From Acetobacter orientalis (GTDB lineage: Bacteria; Pseudomonadota; Alphaproteobacteria; Acetobacterales; Acetobacteraceae), in contig NZ_BAMX01000014.1 of assembly GCF_000963965.1 (NCBI RefSeq), positions 124,001 to 188,000 on the forward strand: 64,000 bases of DNA, given 5' to 3'. Below, piece after piece: positions 21,990-25,031 of this stretch. Each line of letters opens with the position of its first letter. Within the stretch, counting starts at the first letter, position 1. A program made the position numbers and the translations under genes. The notes beneath the pieces are model-generated. The model made no database searches, had not been told where the DNA came from, and was given only the letters and a program-made list of their open reading frames with translations.

Positions 21990-22847
21990 TTAAGCGGCGT
22001 TGCGCTCATAATCCAGAGGGCTTTTCCATTGACTTGCGGAATGCAGCCTCTGAGGATTATAGAAATCATTGATGTAGGATGTGATAGCCTGCCTAACCTC
22101 CTGACGCGTCATCCATGCGTGCCGCCACAGAAGTTCAGCTTTCACGGTCTTGAAGAAGCTTTCCGTGACCGCATTGTCCCAGCAGTTTCCCTTTCTGCTC
22201 ATAGACACGATAAAACCATGGGTAGAAAGGAGTTTGCGGTAATCCTCTGAACAATACTGACTGCCACGATCCGCATGATGGACGCAGCCTGGTGGTGGCT
22301 GACGCAAGGCAATAGCGCGCTGTAACGCTGTCGTAGCAAGGTCTGCGGTCATACGGCTCCCAAGGTTCCAGCCGATGACTCTGCGTGAGAAGAGGTCCAG
22401 CACCACAGCCAGGTAAACCCAGCCTTCACGTGTCCAGATGTATGTGATGTCTGCTGTCCATTTCCGGTTAAGCGCTGGTGCTGAAAAATCCTGTCCCAGA
22501 AGGTTGGGGTCAATAGTGTGCTTGTGCGAACTGTTCGTGGTGACCTTGAAGCGTCGTGTCCTGACAACACGAATGTCATACGCGCGCATCAAACGTCCAA
22601 CGCGACGATGCCCGACAGACAGACCCGCAGCCCTGAGTTCTTCTGTCATACGGGGACGTCCGTAACTTTGCCTGCTCTGAGCGTGAATGGCGCGGATATG
22701 GACCATCAGGATGTCATCCTGTCTTTTGCGGGCACAGACCGGGCGTCGTCGCCAGGCCCTGAAACCCCGGTCGCTGACACCAAACAGACGGCAAACCCGT
22801 TCGCGTGAAAGTGGCCCATGATAGCGAGCAATAAAGGCAAACCTCAC
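21990..22847 (-). CDS. IS3-family transposase OrfB (DDE catalytic domain)
   Basis: This is the integrase-core half of an IS3 transposase, 285 residues. The N-terminal HTH_21-like region (SRERVCRLFGVSDRGFRAWRRR) is followed by the rve core with the complete DDE set: WTADITYIWT, HHADRGSQYCS and NAVTESFFKTVKAEL. The C-terminal YNPQRLHSASQWKSPLDYE is typical of the family. Normally it is expressed by programmed frameshifting from orfA. Here orfA is split by the IS110 element, so fusion protein production is abolished although the OrfB frame is intact. Confidence 0.9.
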   Translation of the reverse strand: MRFAFIARYHGPLSRERVCRLFGVSDRGFRAWRRRPVCARKRQDDILMVHIRAIHAQSRQSYGRPRMTEELRAAGLSVGHRRVGRLMRAYDIRVVRTRRFKVTTNSSHKHTIDPNLLGQDFSAPALNRKWTADITYIWTREGWVYLAVVLDLFSRRVIGWNLGSRMTADLATTALQRAIALRQPPPGCVHHADRGSQYCSEDYRKLLSTHGFIVSMSRKGNCWDNAVTESFFKTVKAELLWRHAWMTRQEVRQAITSYINDFYNPQRLHSASQWKSPLDYERNAA

Positions 22848-22880
22848 GACCTTTGGCTCGCGAAGAACTGTGTCGCCTTC

Positions 22881-24249
22881 CTAAGAAACAGCGGGTTCGG
22901 TGGCTACAGGGATAGGATGCAGGGCAAACCCCAGCGATTGGGCGCGTCGGTGTAGATTGGAGACGACACGTTTGCGATGGATTTCATCGTAATGTCCTGC
23001 TCCGGGATCGGCATAAACCATGCCGTATCTGAGGGTATTGTAAAACAGAACCGCTATCTTCCGGGCGGTGGCGGTCACAGCCTTGGCTTTCCCGACCCGC
23101 GCTGACAAGCGTCTGTAAAAAGCCCCCAACGCCGTATCGCTTCGCCCGAGCGTCGTGGCCGCCAGACGCAGAAGGGCTGCGGCCCGGCTTGAGGATCGGC
23201 GGGTGCGGGATGACAGAAGCTTGCCACCGGAAATCTTGTTCCCCGGAGCGAGGCAGAGCCAGGACGTAAAATGTTTTGCACTTGGCCAGGCGCGGAGATC
23301 TGTGCCGCATTCTGCCACAAGCTTGAGAGCCAGGGACACACCGATGCCATGGATCTGCGTGAGATCCACGCCCAGCAAGCGATACAGAATGCCTCGTACG
23401 TCGAAGGACGGAGCGCTCACCTGCTTTGTCTTGGTCCGAGGCTTGGGAAGGTCTGCCGCAGGCTTCGCACTCCTGTGGCTCAGAAGCAGCAGAAGGCCTT
23501 CCATGCGGCGATCACAGGCCACAATCCGTTCCTGATAAATATCATAGAGCTCCAGGGCCTGCGTCAGGGCAAAAACATGCTCATCTCTATAATTCCCTCT
23601 CAAAGCAGCTGATATGATCTCTGCCGATGAGCGGCATCTGAGATCGCGATTGGCGGCCAGGATCTCTGGATCACGTTCACCACTGACAATGGCCCGAATG
23701 ATCTGCATGCCTGTGACACCGGTAATATCGGAGACGACGTGATGGAGCTGCAGGTTCATTTCCATCAGAGCTTTTTGCATGTGCTGGATATGTCCCGCAG
23801 CATACTCAACGAGACGTTCACGTTGACGCAGGTAAGCCCGCAATGCAGCAATATCGCCCTGAGGCCGGAAGCTCCCGCGCAGCAAACCATAGGAATGAAG
23901 TTGCTGGAGCCATGCCGCATCGCTCACGTCCGTCTTGCGACCGGGCACGTTCTTGGCGTAGCGCGCATTGACCAGAATGACGTCGAAACCATGTTGCTCA
24001 AGAATTTCGTAAACCGGGATCCAGTAGACGCCTGTAGATTCCATGGCGACACTAGTGACTTTGCAGTCTTTGAACCACTCAGCCAATGCATGCAGGTCGG
24101 ACGTAAATGTGCCAAAGGACCGGATTGGATCCTTCGCAGCCTCAGGGGAGACCGCTGCCATATGCATCCGTGATCCAATATCGATCGCAGCGGCTCCCTG
24201 AATATGACGGGCGAGCTCAGGGGGGCGATTTTACAGATTTTCGAGGCAT
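22881..24249 (-). CDS. IS110-family transposase, frameshifted near the N-terminus
   Basis: This is a DEDD/serine recombinase of the IS110 family, containing VAMESTGVYWIPVYEILEQH, the NARYAKNVPGRKTDVSDA motif and the C-terminal transposase_20 region (LTQIHGIGVSLALKLVAECG). The natural start appears to be ATG 24249, behind GGAGAT, reading MPRKSVKSPP. A run of six G at 24220-24225 puts the next codons out of frame. With five, the protein would read on as ELARHIQGAAAIDIGSRM into the long frame. Starting instead at the internal ATG 24167 would lose AIDIG, which holds the first catalytic aspartate. The copy is therefore probably inactive or slippage-dependent. Confidence 0.8.
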
Positions 24250-24481
24250 CGTAATATCTCCACACGGTGTGCTGGAGGAGGGTGTGGAACATGCCTATCA
24301 ATCATCTTCCTAACCGGGATCACCGCAAGGCGGTGTCACCATTCTCAAGTTCGCACAGTTCCATGGACCACGTTTTTTAACGGGGACGAACCCGCCAATA
24401 AGCGAACGGCCGCTACCCTCCTGTCCGGCACAATAGCATGGCCCGTTTCTATGCCGCACAGGCGGACAAACGTCCGGGATC
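24250..24481 (-). ncRNA. Candidate IS110 bridge RNA region
   Basis: This leader sits where IS110-group elements encode bridge RNA. On the plus strand it contains CGTTTTTTAAC at 24371-24381, identical to the insertion junction at 24481-24491. The copy lies inside a loop closed by GTTCG (24349-24353) and CGAAC (24387-24391). Next is a hairpin with arms CACCGC/GCGGTG (24321-24335). Beside it CTTCCTAA (24306-24313) and CCGGGATC (24314-24321) repeat the two element termini at 22877-22884 and 24474-24481. The target match has the polarity expected for a left target guide; the terminus matches do not follow the canonical donor-guide polarity. Confidence 0.55.
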
Positions 24482-25031
24482 GTTTTTTAACAGCTCCCTC
24501 TCCTCCCGCAGCAGAAGGTTCTCACGGCGTAATCTCTCATTCTCAAGCAATAACGCTGCATGATCCGTTGCATCAGCAACCACAGTGTCGTGCTGCTGCG
24601 CATCACGGATCCATTTCTTCAATGTCGAAGACCCAATACCCAGATCCTGGGCAATACGTTCGCGTGACAGACCGCTGCTCAGAGCTAAACGCACCGCCTC
24701 GTGCCTGAACTCCGCCTTGTAAACTCGTCCCATTCCATGTCTCCTTCATGACCATCTTCGGTCTTAAAGGTCCGGAACTAAACCGTGACACGTCCATCAT
24801 TGCGGTTGCTGCTGTCACGTCTGCGGCTTCGGGTGACGCGACGACGACGGAGAATGGCAAGGTGACGGCCGAGACGACAGTGTCGTGCAGTTCGGGAGGG
24901 AACCTTGTCGGGCAGACGGAGATGACCTGTCAGGCCAGGGGGAAGTGATCCAGGGCGGGCGCGGCTTCGGGCTGTGGCTGATGGGAGAGGGACGCTCCGG
25001 GTTCGGGGCACCCCTTTAATCATTGACTCAG

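Follow-up and report, generated by a model that had tools for sequence, protein, structure and literature searches.

An IS110-family element interrupts an IS3-family gene

We analysed a 64,000-nt stretch of the Acetobacter orientalis genome (NCBI RefSeq GCF_000963965.1, contig NZ_BAMX01000014.1, positions 124,001 to 188,000), hereafter the window, in whose own numbering all coordinates are given. On its minus strand, an IS110-family element separates the orfA and orfB parts of an IS3-family element (Table 1). The IS110 transposase scored above the curated Pfam cut-offs for both DEDD_Tnp_IS110 (74.6 bits) and Transposase_20 (46.1 bits). A conserved non-coding leader lies 5' of the transposase gene, and the transposase stop codon lies at the right end of the element. 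An uninterrupted A. orientalis IS3 copy (L102; L numbers denote individual loci) reads GAACTGTTAAAAAAGGCGACACAG at the same site, and comparison with it showed that exactly two bases, the AA core, are shared by both ends of the insertion. The element is single-copy in its own genome, with one full match and one DEDD_Tnp_IS110 match; a second match to the element query covered 67 bases, nearly all within the query's IS3 flank. We consider it highly probable that the leader encodes an IS110-type bridge RNA guiding insertion to the IS3 frameshift site.

An earlier reading of this DNA from its letters alone (the sequence-only reading) had noted that 11 bases of the leader recur at the insertion junction. 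Indeed, the window holds exactly two copies of CGTTTTTTAAC (24371-24381 and 24481-24491), compared with a mean of 0.05 copies in 100 dinucleotide shuffles, none of which reached two. The equation of this 11-mer with the junction holds for nine bases (24483-24491), which are target plus core; the other two (24481-24482) belong to the element. At the scale of the genome, GTTAAAAAAGGC was found at five other places and its reversed control at one.

Table 1 Features of the element and its target in the window (all on the minus strand)
Feature	Position	Basis or remark
IS110-family element	22880-24482	1603 bp excluding core; ends from relatives and uninterrupted IS3 copy L102
AA core, left end	24483-24484	Overlap of both flanks compared with the empty site
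AA core, right end	22878-22879	Flank overlap compared with the empty site and relatives
IS110 transposase gene region	22881-24249	Pfam DEDD_Tnp_IS110, Transposase_20; frame disrupted near codon 11
IS3-family orfA up to and including core (target)	24483-24733	Pfam HTH_Tnp_1
Core, end of orfA overlap and IS3-family orfB (target)	21990-22879	Pfam HTH_21, rve
Expected target of the element, written out		TAAAAAAG
Predicted bridge-RNA body (both strands of outer stem included)	24277-24421	RNAalifold and pair counts, 73 leaders
Outer stem P1, 5' strand	24415-24421 (partner 24277-24283)	7 base pairs, two with changes in both partners; 99.0% of cells paired
P2, 5' strand; closes target loop	24407-24411 (partner 24366-24370)	99.5% paired; pair 1 is G-C in 36, U-A in 35
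P3, 5' strand; closes donor loop	24353-24363 (partner 24285-24294)	96.7% paired; changes in both partners at three pairs
P4, 5' strand	24330-24341 (partner 24315-24326, holds CCGGGATC)	97.8% paired; changes in both partners at six pairs
Predicted left target guide GTTAAAAAA	24373-24381	In the first internal loop, 3' side; identical to left target plus core on the top strand
Predicted right target guide CGCTT	24400-24404	5' side of first internal loop; complements core plus right target
Predicted left donor guide TTAGGAA	24307-24313	Equals right end of element plus core
Predicted right donor guide GATT	24300-24303	Best diagonal against left end of element

Relatives recurrently occupy the IS3 frameshift site

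To place the insertion among its relatives, we reduced 96 aligned leaders to 88 family loci, representing 76 distinct contexts and 73 distinct leaders and including near-identical copies. Eight leaders were excluded: L083 and L001 (the window itself), L093 (the same place as L089), and L024, L055, L081, L071 and L049, whose leaders were cut off or misaligned. Fourteen further relatives brought the set to 102 rows, with L126 (Nostoc, no recognised left end) and L131 (a fragment) left out.

The left target ended in T followed by A6 in 77 of the 88 family loci and in A6 in 82, counting the window. Right ends were located by pattern in 81 loci; the right target started with AAG in 60 of these and with AAAG in 16. 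The peptide preceding the core was ERDILK or EREILK in 59 of 86 cases. Among distinct flank peptides, Pfam detected HTH_Tnp_1 in 58 of 72 upstream, and HTH_21 in 52 and rve in 49 of 68 downstream; too little sequence was available at four loci upstream and five downstream, and seven loci had no right end. In an all-against-all BLAST comparison, 64 of the 72 upstream and 57 of the 68 downstream peptides had at least three kin. Most flanks are thus IS3-family orfA and orfB, interrupted at the A6G frameshift heptamer. In the IS3 copy of G. sphaericus (L103), annotated as a single coding sequence of 1139 nt, the orfA stop comes soon after A6G, with orfB open in the -1 frame. According to PMC4066793, A_AAA_AAG is one of the most efficient slippery motifs, and its motif class is prevalent in the IS1 and IS3 families. 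Two gammaproteobacterial relatives, L123 (65% identity) and L124 (63%), likewise have the target TTAAAAAA, followed by AAAG or AAGG.

Not every insertion lies in an IS3 element. Six loci (L011, L018, L027, L064, L073 and L086) had no kin on either flank, and L072 had none downstream, its upstream peptide being too short. The sites, given here with the AA core repeated on each side, are GTTAAAAAA and AAGG (L011), GCTAAAGAA and AAGT (L018), TCTAAATAA and AAGT (L027), TCTAAAAAA and AATG (L064), TATAAAAAA and AAGC (L073), TGTAAAAAA and AAGC (L086), and CCTAAAAGA and AAGG (L072). Because these seven insertions without detected IS3 kin retain the short site, the specificity, as read from the insertion sites, appears to be for a short sequence rather than for an IS3 gene. 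Copies with the same guide outside IS3, such as L086 and L011, were sought as possible counter-examples to the sequence-only reading; they still lie at TAAAAAA followed by G. By eye, the right flanks of L011 and L072 resemble the A-tract side of intrinsic terminators. We found no report of IS110 elements targeting a frameshift site in searches of an open-access library, which did not extend to the figures and supplements of the bridge-RNA papers.

The leader has a conserved two-branched fold

The RNAalifold consensus of the 73 distinct leaders comprises an outer stem, two branches that contain internal loops, and a stem-loop at the 5' end, and the candidate guide segments lie within these loops, as a bridge RNA fold would have them. 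Overall, 98.0% of cells were paired, compared with 93.1% after shuffling and at most 47.3% in slid versions, a control biased towards a structure that comes from the alignment itself. Changes on both sides occurred at 15 of 43 pairs, and the covariation score was reached by none of 500 shuffles, a result inflated by kinship. One RNAalifold helix (153-156/192-195) was excluded from the pair count, being invariant and overlapping the donor guide. The GTTCG/CGAAC stem that the sequence-only reading took to close the guide loop is readable in the window but missing from this consensus.

Predicted target guides change together with their targets in relatives

At each of positions -1 to -7, between 91 and 101 of the 102 loci have a predicted left target guide that agrees with the target. 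In a test on 98 of the 102 rows (32 distinct pairs), guides matched their own target at 7.00 of nine positions, compared with 6.49 after permutation, and none of 5000 permutations scored as high. A telling case is that of L119 (Rhizobium leguminosarum) and L130 (Sinorhizobium), whose guides, GATACCTAA and GTTACCTAA, are both TACCTAA guides. In different surroundings, both lie at the same target, TTGCTACCTAA (GCTACCTAA, TACCTAA), while their right end TTTCTTAGG is unchanged. In L125 (Eleftheria), the guide GTCTAAAAA accompanies the target CTCTAAAAA. The proposal of the sequence-only reading that the left guide is the top strand of its target finds support: the segment matches left target plus core and co-varies with the target in relatives. 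Together with target recurrence, the seven insertions without detected IS3 kin and the covarying fold, this co-change supports its description of the leader as carrying a readable bridge-RNA target guide.

In the tree, whose root serves for drawing only, L119 and L130 were joined (99/94) and adjoined L116 (99/98), and four Bradyrhizobium rows were joined (100/100) and adjoined L118 (98/98). Because the neighbours L116 and L118 carry A-tract guides, such guides look ancestral. A 36-base match and its context suggest that in Bradyrhizobium the target is an IS3-family orfA in antisense. We considered this target as a further frameshift site and dropped the idea, as the matching stretch in L132 lies antisense inside orfA, upstream of the orfA end. 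At a separate locus, L131 (R. ruizarguesonis), positions 561-660 hold a left-end fragment of an L119-type element, with a 54-base match, beside a TTGCTACCTAA target. An inverted TTAGGTAGCA lies near this TTGCTACCTAA, and the target may be a palindromic repeat.

For the right target guide, we compared a candidate 5' of the left guide with one 3' of it (NNCTT after the left guide), using 100 of the 102 guide windows (without L061 and L080), 90 of them with a right target, taking the better of two registers and retaining about six guide windows that look mis-cut. The 5' candidate matched its own right target at 3.68 of five positions, compared with 3.23 when permuted (0 of 5000 as high; 41 distinct pairs). 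Without six retargeted loci, these values were 3.58 and 3.36, with 28 of 5000 as high. Complementarity was complete (5/5) for GCATT with AATGC in L130 and for CGATT with AATCG in the Bradyrhizobium loci L120 and L122; it was 4/5 in L119 and L127, and the right end of L121 is degenerate. The right guide thus appears to lie 5' of the left guide, an IS1111 order at an IS110 location. According to PMC11187229, IS1111 seekRNAs carry the top-strand complement ahead of the other guide, whereas in the IS110 example given there it comes second; in PMC11208158, the left target guide of IS621 (A50-U58) precedes its right target guide (G77-G80). The order seen in IS621 and ISEc21, with the bottom-strand guide 5' of the top-strand guide, was not found here, by sequence only; as this order may or may not define the IS110 group, we file the element as a variant of the IS110 family rather than a typical member of the IS110 group.

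Candidate donor guides resemble the ends of the element

The second internal loop holds candidate donor guides. TTAGGAA was present in 68 of the 73 leaders and TAGGAA in all of them. The right end TTTCTTAGG was found in 80 of 81 rows, a uniformity that is partly a selection artefact, since right ends were found by pattern. For the left end, the best diagonal starts nine bases from the start of TAGGAA, with 90% pairing compared with 82% when permuted (z 6.2), the highest on both measures; several other diagonals had z values of 5 to 6 but paired far less. The corresponding right donor guide reads GACG in many relatives. Single-column pairing scores gave many high values, which we put down to kinship, and the diagonal scan, which has no tree correction, was used instead.

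Two repeats of the element termini had been proposed at 24306-24321. One of them, CTTCCTAA (24306-24313), indeed holds the donor-guide-like TTAGGAA. The other, CCGGGATC (24314-24321), proposed as a match to the left end, is probably not a terminus guide, because nearly all of it falls within a conserved RNA helix and, by eye, it is nearly constant where left ends differ.

Proposed mechanism and alternative explanations

In the mechanism that we propose, the leader would be transcribed into an IS110-type bridge RNA whose first loop carries the target guides, while in the second loop TTAGGAA and GATT would pair with the termini of the element around the AA core. The recombinase would then bind this RNA and join a circular form of the element to sites of the approximate form T-AAAA-AA-G. 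IS3 elements need the A-AAA-AAG heptamer, since -1 frameshifting on it makes their fused transposase; the site would be kept for this reason, and the clade may have specialised on it. If so, one mobile element preys on another at the very site that the prey needs for its own movement, and the prey cannot lose the heptamer without losing its transposase. Beyond this, we lean towards a bridge-RNA clade whose target loop is permuted (a left-end RNA, right target guide before left, donor guides left then right), locked on the IS3 frameshift heptamer and modularly retargeted at least twice, mainly through the right guide in Bradyrhizobium and through both guides in L119 and L130. Such natural guide swaps would test the modularity of the two target guides, and a possible mixed IS110/IS1111 layout bears on how guides could be arranged in bridge recombinases.

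The same sites might instead be chosen by the transposase protein, which would read an A-tract followed by G, the A-rich stretch of the leader being merely a structural part of the RNA. The simplicity of the target and the near-invariance of the guide stretch in the 73 leaders fit this explanation. We nevertheless regard it as improbable, as L119 and L130 carry a TACCTAA stretch and lie at a TACCTAA target with their TTTCTTAGG right end unchanged, and as the right guide of Bradyrhizobium changed along with the right target. That the leader's 11-mer is a functionless copy of the flanking IS3 DNA, arisen by chance or duplication, is harder still to credit: A-tracts recur easily, but this one occupies a fixed place within the conserved fold of 73 aligned leaders, and 0.05 copies were expected in the window. 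A different question is the guide order, which might be that of IS621 and ISEc21, with the right guide formed by the conserved CUU on the 3' side of the left guide and the 5' GCTT a coincidence. This CUU is invariant in the 73 leaders and complements AAG, and a left-then-right order is described for both elements in PMC11208158 and PMC11187229. However, L119, L120, L122 and L130 have right targets starting with AAT and retain the 3' CUU, whereas their 5' stretch is GCATT or CGATT, a counter-case weakened by some Bradyrhizobium loci with CGATT at AAGTC. The 3' candidate also showed no co-change (2.95 for its own target and 3.03 when permuted; 4397 of 5000 permutations scored as high), in contrast to the 5' candidate. 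On balance, we find the IS621/ISEc21 order rather unlikely.

Several results nonetheless weigh against a guide RNA of the kind proposed, or against parts of it. The shared target is short and of low complexity, five of the 81 right targets start otherwise than with AAG or AAAG, and agreement of the left guide falls to 38 of 100 at position -8 and 12 of 98 at -9. Guide permutations and z-scores ignore kinship, which alone carries z-scores far, as shown by several low-pairing diagonals with z of 5 to 6. In the window, the right target guide matches only the AAG of AAGGC (3/5 bases), and the right donor guide has no visible core match. Main-clade targets are mostly AAGG, of which the 5' guide matches AAG and at times one base more, and some Bradyrhizobium loci combine CGATT with AAGTC. 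Full retargeting, of both guides, was probably a single event, because L119 and L130 form one clade. Folded alone, the window leader was no better than shuffles (z -0.31); Rfam gave no match up to E 1 in 22700-24760, and no sigma-70-like promoter was found on the minus strand of the scanned stretch. Finally, codons 1-50 are open in five relatives (L003, L005, L006, L084 and L085), and the window copy is probably inactive by itself because its frame is broken near codon 11.

Relation to known systems

IS621 targets repetitive extragenic palindromic (REP) sequences, whereas the element described here targets IS3. Its protein is distantly alike, with a phmmer E value of 4.9e-7 to 8wt6 over query residues 32-112. 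As described in PMC11208160 and PMC11208158, IS621 shares with our element a left-end leader RNA with a 5' stem-loop and two guide loops, target and donor guides, and a 2-bp core; it differs in its CT core, compared with AA here, and in placing the left guide first, where the right guide apparently comes first in our element. Closer in its targets is ISEc21, through which the targeting of IS3 by IS110 elements as such is already known. Its seekRNA, in the account given in PMC11187229, is likewise an upstream non-coding RNA with certain IS3-family targets and a naturally redirected relative, ISMch6. There, the top-strand match lies 3' of the bottom-strand match, an arrangement apparently reversed here, where the frameshift site is hit. 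The IS1111-type seekRNAs of ISEc11, ISKpn4 and ISPa11, treated in PMC11187229, have the top-strand complement before the bottom-strand match, the order proposed here, and natural reprogramming is reported for them. Their RNA usually lies downstream of the transposase gene, unlike the upstream RNA here, and these elements have subterminal inverted repeats of 11-13 bp. The longest exact inverted match within the outer 60 bp of the window copy, the only copy considered, was 6 bp. A 6-bp subterminal inverted repeat, AGAAAC, lies at 24445-24450 and 22884-22889 and by eye is largely retained in relatives.

Distribution and minor features

Pattern searches, with different patterns at each level, found four carriers in 397 family genomes and one in 385 class genomes, the element's own genome among them, and no carriers among viral contigs. 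The frame break in the window transposase may be a sequencing error. On the minus strand, TGCTATTGT at 24430-24438 resembles an extended -10 element, and approximately TGnTANNNT is kept across leaders. At about 3315-3523 of L059, a right end is followed by AAA and then by a second left end with its leader, which may represent tandem copies or an integrated circle junction; the joined ends are close to the predicted circle junction.
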